From Flexilinea sp. (GTDB lineage: Bacteria > Chloroflexota > Anaerolineae > Anaerolineales > Anaerolineaceae): 32,660 nucleotides of DNA. The notes beneath the pieces are model-generated. The model saw nothing but the letters and a program-made list of their open reading frames with translations. It did no database searches and had not been told where the DNA came from. The translations under genes and the position numbers were made by a program. The stretch covers positions 1 through 32,660 of the forward strand of contig JAPKMT010000036.1 of NCBI GenBank assembly GCA_026645735.1, written 5' to 3'. This document shows, one piece after another, positions 16,889-32,660 of this stretch; position 1 is the stretch's first letter; each line of letters opens with the position of its first letter.

Positions 16889-19468
16889 ATGAACGAAGAA
16901 TCAACACCTATCCGTCAACAATACCTCGAAATTAAAAAAAATTATCCGGACACCATTCTTTTTTTTCGTCTTGGAGATTTTTATGAAACATTTGATGAGG
17001 ATGCAAAAACCACATCCCGTGAACTGGATTTGGTATTAACTTCCAGAAATGTCGCCAAAGGTGTACGGGTTCCAATGGCAGGCATTCCGTATCATGCGGT
17101 CGAAAACTATTTATCCCGATTAATCGATAAAGGATACCATGTCGCGATATGCGAACAAACCGGCGAACAACCTTCCAAAGGTCTTTTTAATCGCGAAGTA
17201 GTGCGTATTGTCACACCAGGAACACTGATCGAACCCGGATTGCTCAAGAATGATACCAACAATTATTTATTCGCAGCGATTGTTGAAGGAGAAAAAATCG
17301 GTATTTCCTACGCGGATATCACAACTGGCGAATTTGCCGTCACCCAGATTCATAGCACGAATGCTCAATCGGAATTGGTCGCAGAAATAGTCAGGCTGCA
17401 CCCTGCTGAAATACTGCTGCCGGAACATTTCACATTGGAAGAAAATGGGAATCTGCACATCACTAAACAACCGAATTCGGCGTTTGAACCGAGTCGCTGC
17501 TATGAGCTTCTGAAAGAACATTTTCAGGTAAATACGCTGGATAGTTTTGGCATACCTGAAAATAGTGTTGAAATCCGTGCTGCCGGATGCATTCTCCAAT
17601 ATCTTCAGAAAAACCAGCCCTCCAGCTTAAAATTGCTCAATGCCATTTCTGTTTATTCGATCGATGAGTTTATGGTTCTTGATTCATCTACACGCAGAAA
17701 TCTTGAATTGGTTGAAACACTCCGCTCGAATGATACCAAAGGTTCGCTGCTCGGAATCATGGACTTTACAGTCACGTCAATGGGCAAGAGACTGATGCGA
17801 CAATGGGTTAGCAAACCGCTGATCCAGAAAAAAGCAATTCAAAAACGGCAGGATGCCATTGAAATTTTGATTCAAAATGGTATGAAGCGCGCAGAACTGC
17901 GGCACTTATTGAAAGAACTGAACGACATCGAAAGGCTGATAAACCGTGTCAGCGGAAGTATGGCTCAGCCCAGGGATCTGACAGCATTGCGCAGTTCCAT
18001 TGAAATTTTGCCTGGTATTATCCAGATAATCGAACCAATACAAAACGTGTTATTACCAACCGATTATCGAATTTTACCATTAACGGAGGTACTTGCAATC
18101 TTACAGGCAGCCATCGCGGAGGATCCGCCGGCAACATTGATGAACACAGGAATCATTCGGAGCGGTTATTCTACTGAATTAGATCAGGTACATTATGAAT
18201 CCCGTCATGCACGTGATTGGATGGCGAATCTCGAAACTGTTGAAAAAGAGCGAACCGGAATCAAGACATTAAAGGTCAGCTACAACAAAGTCTTCGGGTA
18301 TTACATAGAAATTTCACGTGGCAATGCAGACCAGGCACCTCCGGAATATATCCGAAAACAAACATTAGTTAACGCCGAACGATTCATTACGCCTGAGATG
18401 AAAGAATATGAAACGCTGGTTTTGAATGCAGAGGATCGCATTCATGAAATTGAGAACCGCTTATTCTTTCAAATTTGTTCTGAAATCGATCAATTCGCGG
18501 CAGAAATCCTCCTCACTGCCCGCAGTCTTGCCATGCTGGATGTTCTATTATCGATGGCCGAAATCGCTGCAGTGAACGGCTATGTGCGTCCGGAAATTTC
18601 TGAGGATCAGATCATTGATATTGTCGGAGGGCGTCATCCGGTCGTTGAACAGACATTGGAAAAAGGGAAAAGCTTTGTCCCTAATGATATTCGCTTGGAA
18701 AACGGAGAAATCATCCGTATTGTGACTGGTCCCAATATGAGCGGAAAAAGTACCTTCTTACGGCAGGCTGCAATCATTGTGTTGATGTCTCAGATGGGTT
18801 CCTTCGTGCCTGCTGAAAAAGCCAGAATCGGGCTTGTCGACCGGATTTTCACCCGGATCGGCGCTCAGGATGAAATTCATGCCGGATTATCCACTTTTAT
18901 GGTCGAAATGGTGGAGACAGCAAACATACTCCATAATGCCACCTCAAAAAGTCTTCTCATACTGGATGAGATTGGACGGGGAACCAGTACTTATGATGGT
19001 CTTTCGATTGCCTGGGCAGTCATAGAATATATCCATAATGCACCCCGTCTGCGTGCCAGAACAATTTTTGCCACTCATTTTCATGAACTGACAAAGCTGA
19101 GCGAATCCCTGCCCGGAATTCGAAACTATAATGTGGCTGTCTCTGAGAAAAACGGTGAAGTTGTTTTTCTACATAAAATTATCCCGGGAGCAGCAGACCG
19201 TTCCTACGGGATTCATGTGGGTCAAATTGCCGGTCTGCCGAAACCTGTGATCTCCCGGGCCAATGAAATCCTGACTAAATTAGAAACCGAATCCAAAAAT
19301 GGCAGTAAAAGCGAAAACATCCCTATATCACAGCTTACATTGTTTCCGGAAACAAATCCGCTGTTGGAATCATTACAGAAGTTGGATATCAACAGCATCT
19401 CTCCCATTGAAGCCATCAATATTCTGTATGAATGGAAAAAACGTTTCCTAAATAGCGAAAATAAATAA
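16889..19468 (+). CDS. mutS: DNA mismatch repair protein MutS
   Basis: An 859-residue MutS1 protein, which recognises base mismatches and short loops and starts mismatch repair. The mismatch-reading motif F31-Y32-E33 (FFRLGDFYETF) is present in the N-terminal domain. The ABC-type ATPase has Walker A TGPNMSGKST (613-622), then Walker B LLILDEIGRGTSTYDG and the late THFHEL motif. Length and domain order equal those of bacterial MutS1, so it is not the MutS2 type. The start is fixed by an in-frame stop six bases upstream; the ribosome binding site is weak. No mutL neighbour appears. A repeat-type inverted sequence lies 7 bases after the stop. Confidence 0.97.
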   Translation: MNEESTPIRQQYLEIKKNYPDTILFFRLGDFYETFDEDAKTTSRELDLVLTSRNVAKGVRVPMAGIPYHAVENYLSRLIDKGYHVAICEQTGEQPSKGLFNREVVRIVTPGTLIEPGLLKNDTNNYLFAAIVEGEKIGISYADITTGEFAVTQIHSTNAQSELVAEIVRLHPAEILLPEHFTLEENGNLHITKQPNSAFEPSRCYELLKEHFQVNTLDSFGIPENSVEIRAAGCILQYLQKNQPSSLKLLNAISVYSIDEFMVLDSSTRRNLELVETLRSNDTKGSLLGIMDFTVTSMGKRLMRQWVSKPLIQKKAIQKRQDAIEILIQNGMKRAELRHLLKELNDIERLINRVSGSMAQPRDLTALRSSIEILPGIIQIIEPIQNVLLPTDYRILPLTEVLAILQAAIAEDPPATLMNTGIIRSGYSTELDQVHYESRHARDWMANLETVEKERTGIKTLKVSYNKVFGYYIEISRGNADQAPPEYIRKQTLVNAERFITPEMKEYETLVLNAEDRIHEIENRLFFQICSEIDQFAAEILLTARSLAMLDVLLSMAEIAAVNGYVRPEISEDQIIDIVGGRHPVVEQTLEKGKSFVPNDIRLENGEIIRIVTGPNMSGKSTFLRQAAIIVLMSQMGSFVPAEKARIGLVDRIFTRIGAQDEIHAGLSTFMVEMVETANILHNATSKSLLILDEIGRGTSTYDGLSIAWAVIEYIHNAPRLRARTIFATHFHELTKLSESLPGIRNYNVAVSEKNGEVVFLHKIIPGAADRSYGIHVGQIAGLPKPVISRANEILTKLETESKNGSKSENIPISQLTLFPETNPLLESLQKLDINSISPIEAINILYEWKKRFLNSENK

Positions 19469-20163: not shown

Positions 20164-20283
20164 GCAATTCGAAATATAGATATGCTTTTCAAATATAGAG
20201 TGAAAATATGTAGTTGTGGTGTTTTTGCGCTTCGTGCAAAAACACCACAACTACTATTATTTTTTTTCATAATTCAAATCGCT
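20164..20283. repeat. Dispersed palindromic repeat, complete copy H with 19-bp hairpin
   Basis: Left end GCAATTCGAAATATAG and right end AATTCAAATCGC. A perfect 19-bp stem (20210-20228 with 20236-20254) is continued by a G-T and a C-G pair and closed by a TTC loop like that of copy C. The right-hand end lies within the aldolase gene: the stop codon and last eight codons (SDLNYEKK) are repeat sequence. Confidence 0.75.
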
Positions 20284-21135
20284 ATATGCCCTTCCATCCG
20301 AACCGCAAACCAAGATCCTCTCCTTAACAAATTCCTTGACTGCATCCCGTCCTGCAGCGCAATACTTTTTCGGATCAATGACTCCCGGATCGATGAGAAT
20401 TTTTCTGCAGGCATCCGTGAAATGCGCACGCAATTCTGTCGCAAAATTGACTTTGCAGATTCCTAAAGATATGGACTGACGAACTGCTTCATCGGGAACT
20501 CCGGAAGCTCCATGCAGCACCATCGGAATCGAAACGACCTCCAAAATCTGAGCAAGGCGGTCAAAATCCAGCTTTGGAATGCCCTTATAGAATCCATGAG
20601 CAGTGCCAATCGCCACTGCCAGGCTGCTGATACCGGTGCGCTCGACAAATTCCTTTGCCAGATCAGGATTGGTATAAAGCGCATCCTTATCCTTCACTTC
20701 ATGGGTATCTTCTTTTCCACCAACTGTACCGAGTTCTGCTTCCACCGGAATGGAACAACAATCCGCAACCTCAACCACTTTTTTGGTGACCTGAATGTTT
20801 TCCTCAAAAGATAATTTTGATCCGTCAATCATGACAGAGGTATACCCGGCCTGAATTACCTGACAACATTGATCAAAGGACGATCCATGATCTAAATGCA
20901 TCGCAACAGGAATTTTCGAGGAGTCTGCCAACGAACGGACCATAGAGAAAAATAACGATGGCGAAGCATATTTTAAGGTGGAAGGAGTAGTCTGAATAAT
21001 CAGCGGGGCACATGTTTCCTCCCCTGCCTGAATAACTGCCTGTGCCATTTCCATATTTTCGATATTAAACGCACCCACTGCATAATGACCTCTTTGGGCG
21101 TCCAGCAGCAGGTTTTTTGTTGTAACAATCGGCAT
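20257..21135 (-). CDS. Class II bisphosphate aldolase, GatY/KbaY type
   Basis: A 292-residue zinc aldolase cleaving tagatose- or fructose-1,6-bisphosphate into dihydroxyacetone phosphate and glyceraldehyde-3-phosphate. Catalytic Asp82 and zinc ligands His83, His180 and His208 (HLDHGSS, GTAHG, VLHGASG) fall at the same numbers as in E. coli tagatose-bisphosphate aldolase. This supports both the family and the chosen start, which has GAGGT upstream; an ATG 11 codons earlier has no such site. KCNF-type motif CKVNFATELR is also present. It is the last gene of the sugar operon, 131 bases after the PfkB kinase gene. Fructose- and tagatose-bisphosphate activities cannot be separated by sequence alone. 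The extreme C-terminus is encoded by repeat copy H. Confidence 0.88.
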   Translation of the reverse strand: MPIVTTKNLLLDAQRGHYAVGAFNIENMEMAQAVIQAGEETCAPLIIQTTPSTLKYASPSLFFSMVRSLADSSKIPVAMHLDHGSSFDQCCQVIQAGYTSVMIDGSKLSFEENIQVTKKVVEVADCCSIPVEAELGTVGGKEDTHEVKDKDALYTNPDLAKEFVERTGISSLAVAIGTAHGFYKGIPKLDFDRLAQILEVVSIPMVLHGASGVPDEAVRQSISLGICKVNFATELRAHFTDACRKILIDPGVIDPKKYCAAGRDAVKEFVKERILVCGSDGRAYSDLNYEKK

Positions 21136-21266
21136 AATTGACCTCAGTTTGATAACAGAATCAGTCATTCTGCGGTTTGAGTGCTCCGCTCATTAAAGAC
21201 ATAATAAACTCTGGCGGAAGCTCATCTATAAAACAGAATCACTGTAAAACTTATTTCCAAATTCTT

Positions 21267-22205
21267 TTACTGTTCTAATAATTTTTGAATTTTCACTTCT
21301 TTCAGTAAATTCTTTAGATCTTCTTCCAGGAATGAACCGGTCTCTGCCGTGAGTGCATTGGCTGCGGAAATTGCCACAGCAAAGCGCAAAGATTCTTCCG
21401 CATCATATCCTCGTTGAAATCCGCAGGCAAATCCGGCAACCATACTATCACCACATCCTACTGAATTGACAATATTTAATTGCGGCGGTTTTCCGGAAAA
21501 AATCCCTTCCGAACAGATCAGCAGCGCGCCCTCTTCTCCTAAAGAGATCACCACATATTCAATACCTCTCGTGTGTAACTGACGCCCTTTATGAATCAGA
21601 TTATCTGGTTTACTATTTTCACCGCCAAAAAGCTGCCGGATTTCATCTGAATTCGGTTTGATCATGGTTGGGATTGCACCGATTCCTGCTGCCAGTGCAG
21701 CACCGCTGGAGTCCAGAATGACTTTTTTTCCTTGTTCCTTTGCCAGAATTATTAGATTGGCATAAAAATCAGGTTTCACTCCTTTTGGCATGCTGCCAGA
21801 AATTGTCACGACATCAGCATAAGGCAGTTGTGTCTTGAAATCTCTGAGAAAGCGATCCAAATCATCTTTTGTTACCGGTTCCCCTGGTTCAAGGACTTCT
21901 GTACTCTGATTGGTGGCAAGATCATGGATGTTGATACAGCTTCGTGTCTCACCACACACGCATGTAAAAGCACAGTTAAGGTTGGCAACATCGATCAGAC
22001 TTTTAAAATAATTTCCGCAATGCCCTCCCAGGAATCCCATTGCGGTAACTTTCTCTCCTGCGGATGCTGCCACACGCGATACATTCATTCCTTTACCGCC
22101 CGCCGTATTGTTGACCATTCTCGCGCGCATAACCTGGTGCGGCAACAGTTCATCAACCACATAATACTTGTCAATCGAGGGATTTAGCGTAACAGTGATT
22201 ATCAT
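21267..22205 (-). CDS. PfkB-family 1-phosphofructokinase / tagatose-6-phosphate kinase
   Basis: A 312-residue PfkB sugar kinase of the FruK/LacC branch, which adds the second phosphate to fructose-1-phosphate or tagatose-6-phosphate. Signatures are ITVTLNPSID at the N-terminus, NTAGGKGMNVSRV (33-45), ISGSMPKG (135-142), KPNSDE (183-188) and the catalytic-base motif NSVGCGDS with Asp253. The start chosen gives the standard N-terminus and lies 16 bases after the aldo/keto reductase stop; a frame extended 23 codons upstream would overlap that gene. Its product is the substrate expected by the bisphosphate aldolase encoded next. This makes a two-step exit to triose phosphates. Confidence 0.88.
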   Translation of the reverse strand: MIITVTLNPSIDKYYVVDELLPHQVMRARMVNNTAGGKGMNVSRVAASAGEKVTAMGFLGGHCGNYFKSLIDVANLNCAFTCVCGETRSCINIHDLATNQSTEVLEPGEPVTKDDLDRFLRDFKTQLPYADVVTISGSMPKGVKPDFYANLIILAKEQGKKVILDSSGAALAAGIGAIPTMIKPNSDEIRQLFGGENSKPDNLIHKGRQLHTRGIEYVVISLGEEGALLICSEGIFSGKPPQLNIVNSVGCGDSMVAGFACGFQRGYDAEESLRFAVAISAANALTAETGSFLEEDLKNLLKEVKIQKLLEQ

Positions 22206-22221
22206 AAGAACAATACACCAA

Positions 22222-23235
22222 TCACTTTGTAATCGTACCATCAAGGTCCCACAGATCTTCCCAGCCTTTTGCACCCTCCCAAAGAAAAACTTGTCCTTTA
22301 ATCAAGCGACAGTTTTTATCTGCATTCCGAATTGTTTCCATCTCCGATTCTGTGAGGGGATCTTCCATCGTGCATCGCAGATTACTGACATACTCATTTT
22401 CATGGATCGAAAAAGGAATCGGCACCTGTCCCCGCTGAACCGCCCATTTCAGGCAAACGACTGCAGGGTGTACACCGTGAACCTTTGCAATTTCCACGAT
22501 TTCAGGCATTTGGATATCCACCACATCATCCGGAGTCTTGTCGCGATCCGGCCGGGTCGGAGATCCAATCGGACAAAATCCAATAGGCAGAATTCCTTTG
22601 TCAACAATATACTGAAAAAGTTCAGGTTGCTGAAAGCTCGGATGAAGTTCCATCTCTATGGCAGCCGGAGCAATACGACAAAGCGGTAGGACTGCTTCCA
22701 GTTTTGGAATCGTCATGCTGGACATCCCGATGTATTTTACCAATCCCATGTCAACGAGTCGTTCACATTGCCGCCAGGTATCCATAAATCGATCCACACT
22801 GAAAGGTTTTGAATCCGGATTCCTTGCATCGCCGCTGCATCCGGGTGCATGATAATTTGCAAAAGGCCAATGGACAAAGAACAAATCCACATAATCCAGT
22901 TGCAGATCTTTCAAACTCTTAGCACACGAAAGCAGTACATCACCCCTGCCATGCATATCGTTCCAGACTTTTGTCATGATGAAAAGATCTTCACGTTTGA
23001 CAGTCCCTTTATCAAACGCAGCCTTAAAAACAGCTCCAATTTTATCCTCATTTCCATACACTGCAGCACAGTCAAAAAGACGGTATCCTGCTTCAATCGC
23101 GCCGGCAACTGCAGCAGAAATTTGTTCCGGTGTAAATCGATCGGATCCGAAAGTTCCCATTCCGATACACGGGATTTTTGTTCCGTCAGAAAGAGTCCGC
23201 TGCGGGACTAAACTCGAATCAATCTTAGTTGTCAT
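22222..23235 (-). CDS. Aldo/keto reductase
   Basis: A 337-residue NAD(P)H-dependent (beta/alpha)8 reductase. The catalytic tetrad is complete: Asp55 and Tyr60 (FDCAAVYGNE), Lys89 (MTKVW) and His122 (FFVHWP). It is slightly longer than the ordinary 280-320-residue family. The ATG has GGAAGGATAG upstream. It lies 18 bases downstream of the zinc dehydrogenase gene and 16 bases upstream of the kinase gene, firmly inside the sugar operon. It may therefore interconvert an aldose and its polyol, with the zinc dehydrogenase making a ketose from that polyol. That order is inference. Confidence 0.88.
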   Translation of the reverse strand: MTTKIDSSLVPQRTLSDGTKIPCIGMGTFGSDRFTPEQISAAVAGAIEAGYRLFDCAAVYGNEDKIGAVFKAAFDKGTVKREDLFIMTKVWNDMHGRGDVLLSCAKSLKDLQLDYVDLFFVHWPFANYHAPGCSGDARNPDSKPFSVDRFMDTWRQCERLVDMGLVKYIGMSSMTIPKLEAVLPLCRIAPAAIEMELHPSFQQPELFQYIVDKGILPIGFCPIGSPTRPDRDKTPDDVVDIQMPEIVEIAKVHGVHPAVVCLKWAVQRGQVPIPFSIHENEYVSNLRCTMEDPLTESEMETIRNADKNCRLIKGQVFLWEGAKGWEDLWDLDGTITK

Positions 23236-23253: not shown

Positions 23254-24306
23254 CTAAAATTCATTAATAAGTAATATCCGACCATTTACAGCTCCAGGTT
23301 TTTTGTAGAGCATGAATGCTTCCTGTGCCTGACTCATCGGAAATCGTTCTCCAACGAGTCCCTCATCAAATTGAAGCTTCCCGGTAGCAAAATACTCTGC
23401 GGTCATTAGCCATTCCTTCCCCGGAAAAGGAGCGCTGTAACTCATCCACGAACCGGTCAGATAAAATTCTTTGCGGTTGAGTTTTTCCCATTCAGATGGA
23501 GAGAAGGAAAGATCACTATGCGGTGTGCCGATAAAACAAATCCTGGCTTTGTTCGATGCGAGTTCAAAAGACAGCTTCATCGTTGGAATGACACCGGCAG
23601 TTTCAAACACAAAATCGAATCCTTTGCCTTTTGTAAATTCTTGTACCGCATCCAACCATCCGGATTCATTCGTGTTGATCACTTCATCTGCCCCCAGACG
23701 TTTGGCCAATTCAAGCCGTTCCGGATTGATGTCAATAACTACTGTTGTTCTTGCCCCCAGTAATTTCGCCCATTGAAATGTAAATAGCCCAATAGTGCCA
23801 CCTCCTAAGATAGCGGTTATCCCTCCTCCTCGGAAATCATTCTGTAGTACACCATGAAGCGCTACCGTAGACGGCTCAAACATTGCTCCCTGTTCAAAAG
23901 AGATAGATTGATCAAAAACAACTGCATTTCGCTCAGGGATCACAATATAATCAGCATTACTGCCCTGTTCGCGGGAACCGATGAAACTATAATTCCGGCA
24001 TAAAGCAAAATTTCCTTTTTGACAAGCTTCACATTGCATACAGGGGAGTAATGGAACACCTGCAACACGATCACCGACTTTTACAGAAGATACTCCTTCA
24101 CCGGTTTCCACTACTTCTCCGGAGAATTCATGCCCCAAAACAATCGGATAAAAATGAGCTCCATTATGGAGAACACGCGGGACATCTGATCCGCATATAC
24201 CGGAAACTGCGACTTTCACTTTTACAGCGCCAGCTCGAACTTGCGGTTCTTCATAATCCAAATAACGCACATCTTCATTTGCAACCAATACTGCTGCTTT
24301 CATCAT
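23254..24306 (-). CDS. Zinc polyol dehydrogenase, galactitol-1-phosphate-dehydrogenase-like (MDR)
   Basis: About 350 residues, MDR superfamily. The zinc site has Cys38 (SGICGSD), His59 and Glu60 (LGHEFSGE). The structural zinc uses Cys89, Cys92, Cys95 and Cys103. The nucleotide motif LGGGTIGLF follows. The overall pattern resembles GatD (galactitol-1-phosphate 5-dehydrogenase) and related sugar-alcohol enzymes. Two adjacent ATG codons follow GGAAAAGAAG; the first is used here, and upstream GTG/ATG codons are possible but lack a site. It is homologous to the dehydrogenase encoded near 10.7 kb, but the two are clearly distinct sequences. Being next to an aldolase of GatY type, the galactitol/tagatose route is an attractive reading, not proven. 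Confidence 0.85.
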   Translation of the reverse strand: MMKAAVLVANEDVRYLDYEEPQVRAGAVKVKVAVSGICGSDVPRVLHNGAHFYPIVLGHEFSGEVVETGEGVSSVKVGDRVAGVPLLPCMQCEACQKGNFALCRNYSFIGSREQGSNADYIVIPERNAVVFDQSISFEQGAMFEPSTVALHGVLQNDFRGGGITAILGGGTIGLFTFQWAKLLGARTTVVIDINPERLELAKRLGADEVINTNESGWLDAVQEFTKGKGFDFVFETAGVIPTMKLSFELASNKARICFIGTPHSDLSFSPSEWEKLNRKEFYLTGSWMSYSAPFPGKEWLMTAEYFATGKLQFDEGLVGERFPMSQAQEAFMLYKKPGAVNGRILLINEF

Positions 24307-24388
24307 CTTCTTTTCCATTATCATAAGTAAACAATCCACGATTTGTATAAAATCTTTTGTTTCCCTTTTCTTTCTATTTGATCATAAC

Positions 24389-24499: not shown

Positions 24500-26014
24500 T
24501 CAATTGAGATCCATAAGATTCTTTAATAAATCGTACAGTTCCAAATAAGTTTTATATCCTTTTCGATATTGTTCCTGACCGGATGAATCAGCGATGTGAG
24601 TCCGCTTAATCGCTACAGTGTTGGCAGCAGCATCTTGAAAATTTCGGTACATACCAATACCAACTCCTGCCAAAATTGCTGCACCCAGTGTGGTTGCAGT
24701 ATCAGACGAAGGAACTTCGATTTCTCTTCCGGTAACATCCGCTTTAATCTGAGTCCAAATCAGGGAATTGGCTGAACCGCCCATGGCTCGGAGTTTTCCA
24801 GCTTTTGCTCCTGCACTTTCAGCGACATCCAGGTTGTGTTTTAAGGAATATGCCACACCTTCCATCACCGCTCGTACCATGTGAGCTTTAGTTTTAGAAT
24901 AATCCAATCCGTAAAAAACACCTTTTGCACTTTCATCCCAAATGGGAGAACGTTCTCCAGCCATGTAGGGCAAAAAAATTACGCCATCGCTTCCTGCGCT
25001 GATAGTCCCTCCCAATTGGGAAAGGATTTCAAAGGAAGAGCATCCTTTTTTTCCTGCTTCCAATCTTTCCTCATATCCGAATTGTTGTTCAAACCATTTT
25101 AAAGCGCCGCCCCCACCTGTTGTACCGCCTTGTAGCAGCCATCTTTTCGGAATCACATGAAATCCAAGGATTAACCTCGGATCAGAACAATACTCGGATA
25201 TGCAGATGCTCATGCCACCTGCCTGTCCACCTTGCTCCTGTGTCTCTCCATTATTAATGACTCCTGCGCCCAGAGTACCGCAGGCTGCATCCAGACCTCC
25301 GGCTACTACCGGTGTTCCGGCCAACAAACCTGTTTTTACTGCAGCTTCCGGAATGATATGACCCACAACTTCATGACATGCAGCAATTTCCGGGAGAAAA
25401 GATCGCAGTATTCCAATTTCATGGCACATCGCATCGTCCCAGCATCCTTTGTGCATATCAAAAGCATGAATTCCATATCCCTGAGAAACATCCTGACTGA
25501 TAATCCCCGTCAGACGATAAACAATAAAACTGTTGGATTGCAGAATCTTATCAATTTTCTGGTATACATTTGGTAAATGTTTTTTGTACCACAAGATTTT
25601 CCCAGTTGTGTACTGCGGTTTTAAAGAATTCCCACTGAATTCATACAGTTTCTTTGCACCGATACGCTCTTCAATCTGCTGACATATAGTTTTTGACCGG
25701 GTATCCAGCCAGATTGGATTCCGAGTCAAAACCTTTCCCTCAGCATCAACCGCAATGGCTGCCCAGCTTTGACCGTCGATACCGATACCGGCAATATCAG
25801 CAGCATTAATCGAATTTTCAGCCAAAAGACGTCGAATTCCTCTGCAAACTGCCTCCCACCAGATATCAGGGTCTTGTTCAACAAATCCATTTTGTGGATA
25901 GAAGACAGGATATTCATCGGAGCAGGAACAGGAAACGCATCCTTCGCGAGTAAACAATGCAATTTTACAGGCACTCGTTCCGATATCGATTCCCATCAGG
26001 TAATTGCTGCCCAT
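24500..26014 (-). CDS. FGGY-family carbohydrate kinase, xylulokinase-like
   Basis: A 504-residue cytoplasmic kinase phosphorylating a ketose or polyol with ATP. The first actin-like domain starts with MGIDIGTSACK, with Asp10 near the phosphate site, and has IGIDGQSWAA at about 77. The second has the catalytic aspartate Asp242 in GGLDAACGTLGAG, then a glycine-rich GGTTGGGGALKW and GGSANSLIWTQIKADVTG. Length and motif order fit XylB-like FGGY enzymes. It starts one base after the stop of the mutarotase gene, so translation is probably coupled. The sugar is not determined. It would provide the first phosphorylation, before the PfkB kinase provides the second. Confidence 0.88.
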   Translation of the reverse strand: MGSNYLMGIDIGTSACKIALFTREGCVSCSCSDEYPVFYPQNGFVEQDPDIWWEAVCRGIRRLLAENSINAADIAGIGIDGQSWAAIAVDAEGKVLTRNPIWLDTRSKTICQQIEERIGAKKLYEFSGNSLKPQYTTGKILWYKKHLPNVYQKIDKILQSNSFIVYRLTGIISQDVSQGYGIHAFDMHKGCWDDAMCHEIGILRSFLPEIAACHEVVGHIIPEAAVKTGLLAGTPVVAGGLDAACGTLGAGVINNGETQEQGGQAGGMSICISEYCSDPRLILGFHVIPKRWLLQGGTTGGGGALKWFEQQFGYEERLEAGKKGCSSFEILSQLGGTISAGSDGVIFLPYMAGERSPIWDESAKGVFYGLDYSKTKAHMVRAVMEGVAYSLKHNLDVAESAGAKAGKLRAMGGSANSLIWTQIKADVTGREIEVPSSDTATTLGAAILAGVGIGMYRNFQDAAANTVAIKRTHIADSSGQEQYRKGYKTYLELYDLLKNLMDLN

Positions 26015-26634: not shown

Positions 26635-27717
26635 CTAATCATAGAGTAGGGCAGCAATTGCCGGATCATCCATGTTTTGATAGGTGTAATACTGGCAGCC
26701 GGTATCCACAATCGGATCAACTTTTTCGCCATTGAGTGTTTTAACAGCGAGTTCAACAGCATAGAAACCGATCATATATGGATCCTGAGTAACTGCACCG
26801 TGAAACCACTGATTGCGTATTGCGTTGAGCAGTGTAGCGCCGGAGTCAAAACCTACAACGATCAAGTCCTTATAGCGTCCTTTTTCACGATCCAGATCAG
26901 AGCCATCGGCTGTTGCAGCAAGCATTCCATCAACAGAACCTGAGTTGGTGCAGAAAACTCCCACCGGTTCTCTTTGGATGACAGCCTGGGCTGCAGTCTG
27001 ACAATCGGTGACACTGGTGGAAGCTGCAATCGAAACCAGAATTTCGATGGCTACATCACCGGATTCTGATGCTTTCTTCCACTTATCATGACCCGTAACC
27101 GCTACGAGTCCTGGTTGGTGAAAATTGCAGACTTCATACATTCGATTGACAAAACCGGTAGTACGGCCGGTAATTGATGCTGAGGTTGCATCCTGGCTGA
27201 TAACACTCAGAACAATGGGAGCATCTTTGGTCGCGCCTGTTATGGCTGCCATAACTTTTTCTATACCTGCCATCTGATCCGCTGCCAAAGCGCCGGCTGC
27301 TTCATTGTCAGTGGAAGCCGTTGAAATAATTGAGCCTTCCGGAGCATTCGGTACACCGCTGTCGAATCCGATTACAGGGATCCCTTTTTCTTTGCAGGTA
27401 TTCAACTGTTCTGTGACCGATTCAGTATCCAGCGCTGCAAGGCAGAGGGCTGCCGGATTGTTGGCCATCGCTGCATTCAGCATGTCCACCTGAACACTGA
27501 TGTCAGATTCAGAGGGAGGGCCATCAAATGTAATTTTGACGCCATATTTTTCTGCAGCAGCTTGCGCACCAGCCTGAACTGTCTGCCAGAATTTATGTTG
27601 GAATCCCTTGGATATCAATGGAATATACGGGGTATCAGCCGCGACAGCGGGCGCTACAAAGGCTGACAGTGAAACAAGAATCAATAACACAGATACGACA
27701 ACTAAAAGTTTCTTCAT
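26635..27717 (-). CDS. Sugar ABC transporter substrate-binding protein, RbsB-like
   Basis: A 360-residue exported type-I periplasmic-binding protein. The N-terminus is a Sec signal peptide ending AVA at about residue 27, with ADTPYIPL beginning the mature part. No lipobox cysteine is present. The mature chain shows the RbsB pattern: PLISKGFQHKFWQTVQAGAQ at the start, DSGVPNAP, ASTDNEAAG, GFDSGATLL and the late GAVTQDPYMIGFYAVE. The ATG chosen is the second of two, with GGAGG at six bases. It lies 63 bases after the permease gene. With an ATPase of RbsA type and one permease, the system belongs to the CUT2 class, which imports monosaccharides. Confidence 0.9.
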   Translation of the reverse strand: MKKLLVVVSVLLILVSLSAFVAPAVAADTPYIPLISKGFQHKFWQTVQAGAQAAAEKYGVKITFDGPPSESDISVQVDMLNAAMANNPAALCLAALDTESVTEQLNTCKEKGIPVIGFDSGVPNAPEGSIISTASTDNEAAGALAADQMAGIEKVMAAITGATKDAPIVLSVISQDATSASITGRTTGFVNRMYEVCNFHQPGLVAVTGHDKWKKASESGDVAIEILVSIAASTSVTDCQTAAQAVIQREPVGVFCTNSGSVDGMLAATADGSDLDREKGRYKDLIVVGFDSGATLLNAIRNQWFHGAVTQDPYMIGFYAVELAVKTLNGEKVDPIVDTGCQYYTYQNMDDPAIAALLYD

Positions 27718-27780
27718 CATTTTCCTCCAAAAAATTACTATCACTCCATCAGATCGATTTTCTGATGGTTATTCCACGAT

Positions 27781-28752
27781 TTATTTCTTCACCCTGGTAC
27801 CTTGTTTCAAACGATATTGATCTAACAATACCGCTCCGATCACAACAACGCCGGTAAAGAATGTTTGCCAATGGCTCTGCAATCCCATCGACATTAATCC
27901 CTGTTTCAGAACGCTCATAATATATACACCAATGAGCGTGCCAACCAAGGTACCGGTTCCGCCAGCCATGCTGGTTCCGCCAATGACAACACCTGCAATT
28001 CCAAGAAGCTCCATTCCATTCCCGGTACTGGGGATAATCGATGTATACACAGCCGCATAGAAAATTCCAGCCAGTCCGGAGCAAAAACCGCAAAAAGTGT
28101 AAACCCCAGTCAGCCAGGGATTGATTTTGATTCCGGATAACCGTGCTGCTTCCCGATTTGAACCGATTGCGAAAGTATATCTGCCAAATTTCGTTTTGCT
28201 GAGCAAAATCAGCGCAATCAGAAAGAAACCCATTAGCCAGAAAATTCCTACAGGGAAACCTCCTGTTGTTTTATAGAAAAAGTTTTTGAACCACCCTTCT
28301 GGTGTACCAAACGTGGGATAGCGCATTGTCTGCACTCTAGTACAAATTGCACCAAATCCCATACCCATCATCTGCGTACCCAGGGTCGCAATAAACGGCG
28401 GAAGATTCAAATACGCGATTAAAACTCCATTTAAAAAACCAATTACTGTAGCAACAAAAACAACCAGCAGAAGGCACCAACCCATCGGCCAATGCCAGCT
28501 ATTGAAGGCAGCACCTCCCAACAGCGCAGCACACATCATGGTCGTCCCGAGCGAAAGGTCAATACCGCCGGTGATAATGACAAAGGTGACTCCAATCGCC
28601 ATGAAACCGATATAGTAAGAGCCATCCAGTATATTGATCAAATAATCATCCGAGAAAAAATTCCTTCCAAAAATCGAGAAAAACAAGTACAGCAAAACCA
28701 GAACCATCGGAGCAAGGATTTTCGTAAAGTTGAACTTTTTATTTTTTTCCAT
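27781..28752 (-). CDS. Sugar ABC transporter permease, RbsC-like
   Basis: A 323-residue inner-membrane permease of the CUT2 (ribose/xylose/galactose) class. Hydrophobic segments run throughout. The family signatures FVIITGGIDLSLG (about 55-68), PPFIATLGTQMMG and FAIGSNREAARLSGI, which contacts the ATPase, and GVVIGGTSMAGG are present. The ATG is preceded by GAGGT at 8 bases and lies 11 bases after the ATPase stop; a GTG five codons earlier overlaps that stop. In this class one permease gene gives a homodimer, consistent with a single copy here. Confidence 0.92.
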   Translation of the reverse strand: MEKNKKFNFTKILAPMVLVLLYLFFSIFGRNFFSDDYLINILDGSYYIGFMAIGVTFVIITGGIDLSLGTTMMCAALLGGAAFNSWHWPMGWCLLLVVFVATVIGFLNGVLIAYLNLPPFIATLGTQMMGMGFGAICTRVQTMRYPTFGTPEGWFKNFFYKTTGGFPVGIFWLMGFFLIALILLSKTKFGRYTFAIGSNREAARLSGIKINPWLTGVYTFCGFCSGLAGIFYAAVYTSIIPSTGNGMELLGIAGVVIGGTSMAGGTGTLVGTLIGVYIMSVLKQGLMSMGLQSHWQTFFTGVVVIGAVLLDQYRLKQGTRVKK

Positions 28753-28763
28753 AACCAATAACC

Positions 28764-30332
28764 TCACATTTTTGATGTCGCTAAAGTCATGATTTTTTCC
28801 TGGGTTGCATCTTCAATATTCATTTCACCCGTGATGCAGCCCTCACACATAACAACGATTCGATCACTCATCCGCAAGAGTTCAGGAAGTTCGGAAGAAA
28901 TCATAATAATGGATTTTCCTTCTGCAACAAGTTCATTCATCAACTTATAGATTTCCTGTTTTGCGCCGACATCGATGCCTCGTGTTGGTTCATCAAAAAT
29001 CAAAACATCGCTGTTTCGGATCAGCCATTTGGCAACCACAATTTTTTGCTGATTTCCACCGGACAGATTTACCACTAACTGACTTATGGAAGGAGTCTTA
29101 ATATTGATTTTGCCAACATAATCTATCGTTGTCACATCAATTTTTTGATCGTTGGTAAATGGACCTTTCAAAAAAGCGTCAAGATTTGCCATCACACTGT
29201 TTTCGCGGACAGCCAGTCCTATTGCCAAACCAAATCCTTTTCTGTCCTCAGAAAGATAACCAATGCCATGCGAAATCGCATCACTCGGACTCTTTACGGT
29301 TATGGTCTCTGCATTTACTACAATTTCTCCTCTGTCCAAAGGATCAGCTCCGAATAACGCTCGCATTGTTTCTGTACGACCGGCGCCAATCAATCCGGCA
29401 AAGCCTAATATTTCACCCTTGTGAAGACAAAAGGAAACATCTTTTACATTATTCCCGCACAAATGCCTGGCTTCCAAAATAACAGGAGCATCTGCCGGTA
29501 CGGTGCTTTTTACTTTTGGCTCTTCATAGATCGTCCGCCCAACCATCATACTGATAATTTCTGATTTGGTTACTTTGGTGGTTTCAACCGTTCCAACATA
29601 TTGCCCATCACGCATGACTGTGACGCGATCGGTAATAATTGGTAGTTCATCCAATCGATGAGAAATGTAAATAATTCCGTGTCCTCTTGCTTTTAAGTTA
29701 CGAATAATCTTAAATAATTCCTCAATTTCGTTGTCTGTCAGAGAGGAGGTTGGTTCATCCATCACCAGTAGTTCACTGTCGTAAGAGAGCGCTTTTACAA
29801 TTTCGACCATTTGCTGTTTCGCCACCGTTAATTGACCGGTTGGTATTGTCGGGTCGATATCGATATTTAATGCATTCAGCATTTTTCTTGCATCATCATT
29901 CGCTTTTTTCTCATCAAGGAAAAGCCCTTTCATCGGTTCTTTCCCGATAAAGATGTTTTCAGCTACCGTCAAATGGGGCATCAGATTGATTTCCTGATGA
30001 ATGATTCCAATTCCGAGCTGTTGAGATTCTCTGGTATTGTTAACATGAATTTCATTGCCGCGAAACTTAATCGATCCACTGTCCCTTTTGTAAATGCCAG
30101 TAAGTACTTTCATCAGGGTTGATTTGCCAGCTCCATTTTCCCCGACTAATCCGTGAACTTCTCCTTTTTTTACTTCCAAACAGGCATTATCAAGTGCATG
30201 AACACCTGGAAACGATTTTTGTATATCCGTCATCTGTAATAACACTTCTGCCACAGGTTTGCCGTCCCTTTCATGGTTTTCCAGTATTTCGAAATAAGAG
30301 GAGAATTCTTTTTTATTCGTGTAATGCTGCAT
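28764..30332 (-). CDS. Sugar ABC transporter ATPase with two nucleotide-binding domains, RbsA-like
   Basis: A 522-residue cytoplasmic ATPase with tandem domains. The first has Walker A GENGAGKST (64-72), the LTVAKQQM signature and LLVMDEPTSSL. The second has a degenerate Walker A (GLIGAGRTE), a strong LSGGNQQK signature and VLIFDEPTRGID. Such asymmetry is normal for RbsA/XylG/MglA proteins. About 28 residues precede the usual family beginning, so translation may instead start at GTG (base 30254) behind AAAGGGACGG. The first ATG has a weak site. It is the first gene of the nine-gene leftward operon, with an untranslated leader of roughly 220 bases from the proposed promoter. Confidence 0.92.
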   Translation of the reverse strand: MQHYTNKKEFSSYFEILENHERDGKPVAEVLLQMTDIQKSFPGVHALDNACLEVKKGEVHGLVGENGAGKSTLMKVLTGIYKRDSGSIKFRGNEIHVNNTRESQQLGIGIIHQEINLMPHLTVAENIFIGKEPMKGLFLDEKKANDDARKMLNALNIDIDPTIPTGQLTVAKQQMVEIVKALSYDSELLVMDEPTSSLTDNEIEELFKIIRNLKARGHGIIYISHRLDELPIITDRVTVMRDGQYVGTVETTKVTKSEIISMMVGRTIYEEPKVKSTVPADAPVILEARHLCGNNVKDVSFCLHKGEILGFAGLIGAGRTETMRALFGADPLDRGEIVVNAETITVKSPSDAISHGIGYLSEDRKGFGLAIGLAVRENSVMANLDAFLKGPFTNDQKIDVTTIDYVGKINIKTPSISQLVVNLSGGNQQKIVVAKWLIRNSDVLIFDEPTRGIDVGAKQEIYKLMNELVAEGKSIIMISSELPELLRMSDRIVVMCEGCITGEMNIEDATQEKIMTLATSKM

Positions 30333-30589: not shown

Positions 30590-30634
30590 GAATTGAAATA
30601 TATTGAAACGTTTTAATATTTTAAATTTCAATTC
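30590..30634. promoter_or_regulatory. LacI-type operator nested in a larger inverted repeat
   Basis: The core ATTGAAACGTTTTAAT (30602-30617) is a 14-of-16 palindrome with the central CG typical of LacI-family operators. It is framed by a perfect 10-base inverted repeat, GAATTGAAAT (30590-30599) and ATTTCAATTC (30625-30634). The half-site ATTGAAA thus appears four times: two forward and two inverted, one inverted copy varied to TTTTAAT. The centre lies about 60 bases upstream of both divergent transcription starts. The adjacent LacI-type regulator is the natural ligand, by inference. Confidence 0.65.
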
Positions 30635-30692: not shown

Positions 30693-32660
30693 ATGAGCAC
30701 AATCAAAGAAGTTGCTGCATTGGCAGGAGTATCGATCGGTACAGTTTCCAATTACTGTACTGGAGCCAGATACGTACAACCTGAAAAGGCAAGAATGATC
30801 AAAGAAGCCATAGAAAAATTGGATTACAAACCGAATACTTACGCGAAAAGTCTCCGATCCCGAAATAATCAGGAAATTGGAGTCATACTCCCAAACATTT
30901 ACGATCAGTACTATTCATTCATTCTTGCCGGAATTGAAAGAGAACTGAGAAACAGTAATTATTATGTGAATTTGGGTCTCACTGATGATGTACCGGAAAC
31001 AGAAATTGCCATCCTTTCAAATTTTCAAAAAAAAGACATGAGGGGTTTGATTGTCGTTTCCTGTCAAACAGATCAGCTTTTTTTTGAAAAAACAAAAAAT
31101 TTGACAACAGTTTTTATCGACAGAAAAATTATGCCTGCCGATTTTAATTTTGTTTCCTCCAATCCTTATGAGACCATGTTTTTTCTACTTTCACAATTAA
31201 TAAATCATGGCTACACAAAAATTGGCTTAATTGCCGGACCTGAAAATTTTTCGTGCGAAAAAGAATGCTCAAAAGCCTATTACGATTTTTTTTCCGGAAG
31301 AAATATCACACCGGAAGATGGATTGGTTCATCACATTCGTTCAACGAAAGAAGAAGCATTTCGAACTGCCATTTCGTTCTTACAGGAAAAACACCCGCAA
31401 GTAATCATTTCAACTTCGCAGAATATCTCAACTGGAATCGAACAGGCTGCTTCGATTATTGGAATATCCACAGAAAAAGATCTGTTGATCATCTCCTTCA
31501 GTCAGGAACGATGGAATTATCACATCACATTCAACGGAATCATCAACACGATGAGACCTGCTCATTTTATTGGGAAAAAAGCGGCCAAATTATTACTCAA
31601 TAATTTGAAAAGCCCGCTCTTGTTTGAAAAGCAGCAGATCATCCTGAAGGATAAAATTATTTATCGAAAATTATTTGAAAACGACAGTTTTTCCAACTCA
31701 CAAAAACAATATCAAAACAAAGTATTGAAATTGCTTCTCCTCGATTCGCCCAATGCACACACAATAATTCAAACTCGTTATGACTTTACAAGCAAAACAG
31801 GGATTGATCTCGATATCTCCCTCTGTGAACATAATAAACTTCTCGATCGATTGTTGAATAAAGAGACACTCAGGCATTATGACATTCTGATGTATGATAA
31901 TCCCTGGCTTGATATTCTTGTAGCCAATCATTGTCTGGCTGATCTAACCGGTTTTATTCAGACAGAAGCATTTAATAAGGACATTTTTTTAAGCAAATTG
32001 CCGGAAAAAGTGGGCATGATCAATAAGCAATACTACGGCCTTCCGATTAATTTCGGTCCACAATTGCTTCTGTATCGAAAAGACCTGTTTGAGAATCCAA
32101 TGATCCAGGAACAATTTGAAAAAAAATATCAGACAAAATTGCGAGTCCCCAGGACCTGGTTCGAGTTCAATGTCGTCAGCAGTTTTTTTACACAATCGCT
32201 GAATTCGAATTCTCCTGTGCCATTTGGGACTTCTGTTGCTGCACAAAATGCATCTGTTTTGCTGCCGGAATTAATGCCTCGAATTTGGGCATATGGCGGT
32301 GACGTTTTTGATTCTAATGGGAATGTTGCAGTTGATTCGCCAGAATTTATCAAAGGTGTCACCAGTTTTGTAGAGACTTTCAACAGTACAAATCCTTCAT
32401 CTCTTGATGATAATGTTGAAAAAACCGTCGAAGATTTCTATCTTGGGAAAAGCGCCATGCTGGTCGGTTTTGCATCTTTCATCGCTGACGTCAATAACCA
32501 TTCAAAATCAAAAATCATTGGGAAAATCGGATATGATTATATTCCAGGCGGAGTTTCAGTCTTAGGCTGCTGGGGATTTGGAATCTCCAGCCAGAGCGAT
32601 CAAATCGAAGAAGCCTTTGAATTAATACGATGGACATGTGATCCTGATTTGGAGAATTAT
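30693..32660 (+). CDS. LacI-family regulator fused to a family-1 solute-binding domain (3' end cut by window)
   Basis: The frame is open for 656 codons to the window edge; the stop lies outside. Residues 1-about 55 are a LacI helix-turn-helix (TIKEVAALAGVSIGTVSNY). About 60-328 are the type-I sugar-binding core (IGVILPNIYDQYYSFILAGIE, GLIVVSC, GYTKIGLIAGP). From about 344 a second module begins. It resembles MalE-type family-1 solute-binding proteins: YGLPINFGPQLLLYRKDLF at 448, then PRTWFEF, KSAMLVGFASF and PGGVSVLGCWGFGIS at 618. There is no signal peptide, so the binding domain should be cytoplasmic and act as an extra sensor. ATG follows GAGGAT. The gene is divergent to the sugar operon that it probably controls through the shared operator. 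Confidence 0.88.
   Translation, partial: MSTIKEVAALAGVSIGTVSNYCTGARYVQPEKARMIKEAIEKLDYKPNTYAKSLRSRNNQEIGVILPNIYDQYYSFILAGIERELRNSNYYVNLGLTDDVPETEIAILSNFQKKDMRGLIVVSCQTDQLFFEKTKNLTTVFIDRKIMPADFNFVSSNPYETMFFLLSQLINHGYTKIGLIAGPENFSCEKECSKAYYDFFSGRNITPEDGLVHHIRSTKEEAFRTAISFLQEKHPQVIISTSQNISTGIEQAASIIGISTEKDLLIISFSQERWNYHITFNGIINTMRPAHFIGKKAAKLLLNNLKSPLLFEKQQIILKDKIIYRKLFENDSFSNSQKQYQNKVLKLLLLDSPNAHTIIQTRYDFTSKTGIDLDISLCEHNKLLDRLLNKETLRHYDILMYDNPWLDILVANHCLADLTGFIQTEAFNKDIFLSKLPEKVGMINKQYYGLPINFGPQLLLYRKDLFENPMIQEQFEKKYQTKLRVPRTWFEFNVVSSFFTQSLNSNSPVPFGTSVAAQNASVLLPELMPRIWAYGGDVFDSNGNVAVDSPEFIKGVTSFVETFNSTNPSSLDDNVEKTVEDFYLGKSAMLVGFASFIADVNNHSKSKIIGKIGYDYIPGGVSVLGCWGFGISSQSDQIEEAFELIRWTCDPDLENY

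Follow-up and report, generated by a model that had tools for sequence, protein, structure and literature searches.

LacI repressors are a textbook case of a binding protein turned gene switch. In the Flexilinea sp. DNA analyzed here, from a genus of the Chloroflexota, one such repressor appears to carry a second binding protein of a different fold. The frame lies at the right end of the whole 32,660-nucleotide stretch (the window; contig JAPKMT010000036.1 of assembly GCA_026645735.1), at positions 30693 to 32660 of the + strand, and comprises 656 open codons that run past the window end. This raises the questions of whether the fusion is real, which genes it would control, and which of its two binding folds would sense a ligand.

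Domain organization of the LacI-SBP fusion

Our results confirm that the fusion of a LacI regulator to a solute-binding protein (SBP) is real. The original prediction, made from the sequence, was that one frame encodes a LacI helix-turn-helix (HTH), a type-I sugar-binding core and more than 310 residues of a family-1 SBP. This organization holds: the Pfam search of the window protein detected the LacI, Peripla_BP and SBP_bac_1/SBP_bac_8 families, and each of the five matches exceeds its own curated cutoff. The LacI-type HTH (residues 1 to 48; 30693 to 30836, + strand) matches PF00356 over residues 3 to 48 (E = 1.1e-11, 44.7 bits against a cutoff of 27) and is followed by a hinge placed by homology to LacI proteins (residues 49 to 58; 30837 to 30866, + strand). 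The type-I (LacI/RbsB-like) core (residues 59 to 327; 30867 to 31673, + strand) is matched by both Peripla_BP_1 (PF00532; residues 60 to 264, E = 4e-8, 33.5 bits against 22.2) and Peripla_BP_3 (PF13377; residues 168 to 325, E = 1.7e-7, 31.9 bits against 26.5). After a variable linker (residues 328 to 343; 31674 to 31721, + strand), the family-1 (type-II) solute-binding domain occupies residues 344 to 656 (31722 to 32660, + strand), that is, 313 residues inside the window, and matches SBP_bac_1 (PF01547; residues 394 to 647, E = 1.9e-18, 68 bits against 26) and SBP_bac_8 (PF13416; residues 365 to 652, E = 2.5e-12). The family-5 SBP model (PF00496) gave no match in the window protein up to an E value of 0.1.

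Because the window is an entire contig (G000:C29) of a 3.35-Mb, 86-contig genome, the C-terminus of the fusion was out of sight when the original prediction was made. Extension to the right with the C-terminus of the orthologue placed the rest of the gene at the beginning of contig C30 (84% identity to the orthologue), where the remaining 91 codons and the stop codon occupy G000:C30:3-278. Should C29 and C30 be adjacent, the protein would be 747 aa long, as in Flexilinea flocculi, with the contig end cutting off the last 91 residues of the SBP domain. The chain continues for about 400 residues past the type-I core, in contrast to the two-domain plan of LacI/GalR proteins.

The orthologue from F. 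flocculi TC1 (L017) is intact at 747 aa and 90% identical over the part present in the window. It has neither a signal-like nor a membrane-spanning stretch: hydropathy over 19 residues peaks at 1.3, compared with 3.0 at the N-terminus of the neighboring RbsB. The predicted lack of a signal peptide is thereby borne out, and the fusion protein is probably cytoplasmic. AlphaFold2 models, built from alignments of seven rows, were poor (mean pLDDT of 54.3 for the full orthologue and 42.6 for its SBP part), so the fold assignment rests on homology to solved structures: the fusion-family profile matches PDB 5iai over its full length (E = 6e-44), and the SBP domain aligns with the trehalose/maltose-binding protein 1eu8 (E = 4e-40).

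Five further loci (L018 to L022), from Firmicutes or Clostridia bins, encode proteins that are 50 to 57% identical to L017, with L019, L021 and L022 cut by contig ends. Four of the ten loci in the first relative search match the LacI part only. The architecture was detected by Pfam in all 15 relatives scanned, the HTH of L054 being partial and below its cutoff. Among 11 full-length fusions, mean pairwise identity is highest in the HTH (58%), followed by the SBP (residues 345 to 680) at 36.5%, the type-I core at 24%, the last 67 residues at 23% and the linker at 13%. The SBP half is complete and is better conserved than the type-I core. Positions 19056 to 20840 of L018 hold a 595-aa frame in which SBP_bac_1 is matched only from residue 212, with no Pfam match before it at the limit used.

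The divergent sugar operon and a putative operator

The neighboring transporter is of the RbsABC class, as originally predicted, and its genes diverge from the fusion gene. The operon, entirely on the - strand, begins with an RbsA-like sugar ABC ATPase (28764 to 30332), an RbsC-like permease (27781 to 28767) and an RbsB-like type-I sugar-binding protein whose N-terminus is hydrophobic (26635 to 27744). It continues with an RbsD/FucU-type sugar mutarotase (PF05025; 26016 to 26462), an FGGY carbohydrate kinase (24500 to 26014), a zinc-dependent sugar or sugar-alcohol dehydrogenase (23254 to 24339), an aldo-keto reductase (22222 to 23235), a PfkB-type hexose-phosphate kinase (21267 to 22274) and a class II ketose-bisphosphate aldolase (20257 to 21168). 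Downstream of the fusion, and on its strand, lie a second FGGY kinase (C30:361-1839) and an L-fucose isomerase (C30:1785-3620) that is 97% identical to the L017 copy.

The L-fucose isomerase of L017 scores 973.8 bits against a cutoff of 775 and exceeds both curated cutoffs, and a hydrolase of family GH95, which includes alpha-L-fucosidases, is found near the L018 fusion copy. These genes point to L-fucose or a close relative as the probable sugar. The mutarotase has L-fucose mutarotase as its only NCBIfam match (91.8 bits, under the cutoff of 141), and the downstream FGGY kinase best fits rhamnulokinase; both fall below the cutoffs of the fucose- or rhamnose-specific models. Given the fit of this kinase, rhamnose or D-arabinose is also a possible sugar.

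Linkage to RbsABC genes was considered as a hallmark of the fusion and rejected. RbsA-like genes occur near 16 of 29 fusion loci, but they also occur near 8 of the 12 ordinary LacI loci in the window's genome, so that the transporter class is no mark of the fusion. MalFG-like genes are near 4/29 fusion loci, one of which has both types, and neither was found near 10/29, some of these on short contigs. The window itself yielded no MalFG-type permease.

A 16-bp CG-centered palindrome, ATTGAAACGTTTTAAT (30602 to 30617), with 7 of 8 pairs matched and its center 83 bp before the fusion start, is a putative operator. The window, L017, L018 and L019 share its 13-bp core, TTGAAWCGTTTYA, without a change, and L020 differs from it at one position (ATTAAATCGTTTTAAT); the palindrome centers of these five loci lie at -70 to -94. 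The sole perfect 16-bp match to ATTGAAWCGTTTTAAT in the window's genome is at 30602 to 30617; with up to two mismatches, the genome has 15 matches, compared with 6 for the reversed control, and within the window, at one mismatch, two matches occurred in 9 of 100 shuffles. The number of shuffles, of 500, that reach the palindrome is 8 for the window, 85 for L017, 87 for L018, 266 for L019 and 1 for L020. By itself, the palindrome does not outperform shuffled sequence at every locus, and the evidence for an operator is its conservation and its place. Among nine further fusion loci, L055, L056, L059 and L061 have a looser AACGTT-centered palindrome and the other five have nothing alike. Identity with a CcpA cre site was rejected, as two positions deviate from the cre consensus. 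Even, CG-centered palindromic operators are described for LacI regulators (PMC4052901). The palindrome at 30602 to 30617 fits such a LacI-type operator near the start codon.

Candidate ligand-sensing domain

Two elements of the type-I pocket are altered in the fusion. Codon 192 (31266 to 31268, + strand) encodes Cys in place of the Arg found in ordinary LacI proteins, and codons 268 to 270 (31494 to 31502, + strand) encode Ser-Phe-Ser, the sequence in most ordinary LacI proteins being Gly-x-Asp. In LacI and PurR, this Arg and Asp hold the effector; a literature search on this role found no text. The comparison used 22 ordinary LacI proteins from the window's genome and the genomes of five fusion-bearing relatives, several of them orthologue pairs and hence not independent. 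Arg at window position 192 is present in all 22 of these, in 0/15 fusions and, with more members, in 0/29, a set that contains near-copies (L058 and L130; L059 and L131). Gly at position 268 is present in 18/22 ordinary LacI proteins versus 0/16 fusions, and Asp at position 270 in 20/22 versus 1/16, or 2/29 (L095 and L129) with more members. Shifted residues, at places where the alignment is not certain, are Arg at 191 in 3/29 fusions and Asp at 271 in 2/29. Among the five aligned CcpA sequences shown, three have Gly-Phe-Asp opposite the Ser-Phe-Ser of the window and two are without it.

Seven of the 23 conserved type-I core columns are mostly lost in the fusions, and the family forms a series. 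At one end, L095 has an almost ordinary type-I core with a strong Pfam match (109.6 bits); at the other, the scanned E. coli and Proteus copies gave no type-I Pfam family at an E value of 0.001, their HTH and SBP still being detected. The SBP domain keeps its signature residues: Asp397, Asp402 and Asp464 are each present in 29/29 fusions, Tyr461 in 28, Trp405 in 26 and Trp627 in 23. Together, the absence of the Arg and Asp from the type-I core and the retention of these residues favor one main sensor, the type-II domain, with the LacI chassis's own pocket retired or repurposed.

The type-I core is not decaying. The dN/dS ratio between the window and L017 is 0.022 for the HTH, 0.035 for the type-I core and 0.068 for the SBP, values that are rough since the synonymous distance is near 1, and the core is thus under strong purifying selection. 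This argues against a dead core, which we read instead as kept for dimerization and signal transmission, or as re-specialized.

Our best explanation, to which we give somewhat better than even confidence, is that the fusion is a cytoplasmic LacI-derived repressor that controls a locus for the uptake and catabolism of a 6-deoxyhexose, most likely L-fucose, and that sensing has moved to the appended type-II SBP. We infer both ligand and mechanism. A fusion dimer would bind the palindrome through the LacI HTH and hold both divergent transcription units low. The sugar or its intracellular product would close the type-II domain, and the closed domain would act on the type-I core via the short linker and C-terminal helices, so that an altered hinge geometry of the dimer would release the DNA. 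The type-I core would then be the dimer and transmission part and not the main sensor. More tentatively, and falling a little short of even confidence, the same may be said of the family across Chloroflexota, Clostridia and Proteobacteria: a captured type-II protein would sense in the cytoplasm, the sensor having been swapped and the type-I pocket region reduced to a dimer and transmission part.

The original prediction had suggested that two ligands might be sensed. A two-input regulator would bind separate ligands, such as a phosphorylated intermediate and a sugar, in a re-shaped type-I core and in the type-II domain, and one or both would be required for DNA release; we consider this possibility distinctly less probable. 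In its favor are the strong constraint on the type-I core, the invariance of Ser187 and Glu189, near the type-I pocket, in a seven-row alignment of the window's clade (Glu189 is kept in 21/29 fusions), the Asp kept by L095 and L129, and the strong type-I Pfam match of L095. Such a regulator is harder to reconcile with the absence of the usual Arg at its position from all 29 fusions and of the Asp from 27, with SBP signature residues that are kept, with a type-I core less conserved than the SBP family-wide (24% versus 36.5%), and with a core that falls below Pfam detection in the scanned E. coli and Proteus copies. The claim of two ligands is therefore less well supported than a single main sensor in the type-II domain.

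It is also improbable that the SBP binds no ligand at all and acts as a scaffold or protein-contact module, touching for instance a transporter part or a kinase and so tuning the repressor. A protein partner governs CcpA, itself a LacI-type protein, an SBP in the cytoplasm would have no uptake role, and nine of the 49 columns conserved in standalone SBPs are largely gone from the fusions, a single C-terminal stretch accounting for four of the nine. However, the other 40 columns are wholly or partly kept, including Asp397, Tyr461 and Asp464, and the domain matches solved structures of sugar-binding SBPs over its whole length.

Distribution of the fusion and comparison with known systems

That two genes were misread as one through an assembly or annotation artifact can be set aside, since, although the window stops at a contig edge and a relative (in G1741) is split by a frame break, the same single-frame architecture recurs in many separate assemblies, among them F. 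flocculi, Clostridia bins, long chromosome-sized contigs and a complete Rhizobium plasmid, and 46 of 5426 complete genomes carry a near-identical copy of the 724-codon E. coli plasmid fusion gene.

In genome samples that overlap, that were searched with differing thresholds and profiles and that each include the center genome, the fusion was found in 2/14 genomes of the genus, 1/301 of the phylum, 3/396 of the window's class (including one whose frame is broken), 8/391 of the class of G314 and 13/396 of the order of G466 (5 of the 13 already known). The broken copy (L150; G1741:C6) has its frame break between the LacI and SBP parts and is either a pseudogene or a sequencing error.

In the plasmid collection, a 746-aa copy is present on a plasmid of Rhizobium rhizoryzae (L123:8566-10806), where it is flanked by two MalFGK-type transporter gene sets and adjoins a separate ordinary LacI regulator. 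Proteus mirabilis has a copy in two records, one of which (L124; NZ_OL790811.1) is titled a plasmid, is 4.08 Mb long and is probably a chromosome. The SBP half matches 48 Escherichia records, and Pfam detected HTH and SBP in all three proteins scanned, one each from Rhizobium, Proteus and E. coli. The E. coli gene is plasmid borne at 44 of its 46 places; in one record (L125:4020-6194; NZ_AP027681.1, 29492 to 31666) the 724-aa protein is named "extracellular solute-binding protein" and lies near MFS, MBL-fold and MgtC-like genes. This protein is probably a regulator. Among the 20 plasmid matches listed, 17 bear the name "extracellular solute-binding protein," one is called "hypothetical protein," and two are blank. 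Recognition of the family would correct the annotation of proteins that are filed as extracellular binding proteins though a DNA-binding domain comes first.

A mobile or phage origin was considered and rejected. No fusion relative was found in viral contigs, and of 10 matching records in the phage collection, the two that cover at least 80% of the query are both unannotated and fecal. These two "Bacteriophage sp." records, MT836780.1 (100%) and MT837991.1 (80%), are likely bacterial DNA filed as phage.

In the tree of LacI halves, 16 fusion halves lie on one side of a branch from the 22 ordinary LacI proteins (support 100/98), and in the tree of SBP halves, 17 fusion halves are separated from 28 standalone SBPs (support 99/96). 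Within this limited sample, the trees fit a single fusion event. The placement of L095 conflicts between them: it is outside the other 15 in the LacI tree and with six others in the SBP tree (85/53). An SBP-only profile, run against 398 genomes of the phylum of G314, gave 596 and 427 bits for two frames of fusion length and no more than 238 for any standalone SBP. Three close standalone SBPs (L096 to L098), read by eye, have hydrophobic N-termini and permease-like neighbors. The prediction that the adjacent binding protein did not supply the second domain agrees with these results, as that neighbor is a type-I protein (Peripla_BP_4) and the sampled fusion SBP halves form their own clade.

The first seven operon genes of the window are 61% (kinase) to 85% (aldo-keto reductase) identical to those of L018 and L019, with the aldo-keto reductase and RbsC at 82 to 85% and the others at 61 to 81%, and the regulators of L017 and L018/L019 are 55 to 57% identical. 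These identities with Clostridia bins, together with the rarity of the fusion in its phylum, suggest, without proving, horizontal transfer of the locus.

A literature search found no description of LacI-SBP fusions, most subscription papers being outside its reach. A natural series with an added binding protein of a second fold and an altered pocket would make it possible to study how allostery is rerouted between folds, and could serve as a template for the design of sugar sensors.

The fusion shares with LacI/GalR repressors such as CcpA, PurR and RbsR the HTH, the hinge, the type-I core and a CG-centered palindrome at a divergent sugar operon; unlike them, it adds a type-II SBP of about 400 residues and is without the usual Arg and Asp. 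It resembles the family-1 extracellular SBPs (PF01547/PF13416; 5iai, 1eu8) in having a complete domain, an end-to-end profile match and most signature residues, whereas its SBP has no signal peptide, is part of a DNA-binding protein and has no MalFG-like permeases in the window. SgrR of E. coli and Btr of Bacillus subtilis likewise join a DNA-binding domain to a solute-binding domain with a cytoplasmic sensing role, SgrR-type regulators combining a winged HTH with SBP_bac_5. Both use other DNA-binding and SBP families, and neither is known to have a LacI type-I core between its two domains. Regulators that join a GntR HTH to a LacI-type core also exist (PMC4052901). In these as in the fusion, HTH and periplasmic-binding folds have been shuffled, but there the HTH was swapped on one core, whereas here a second domain of a different fold was added.
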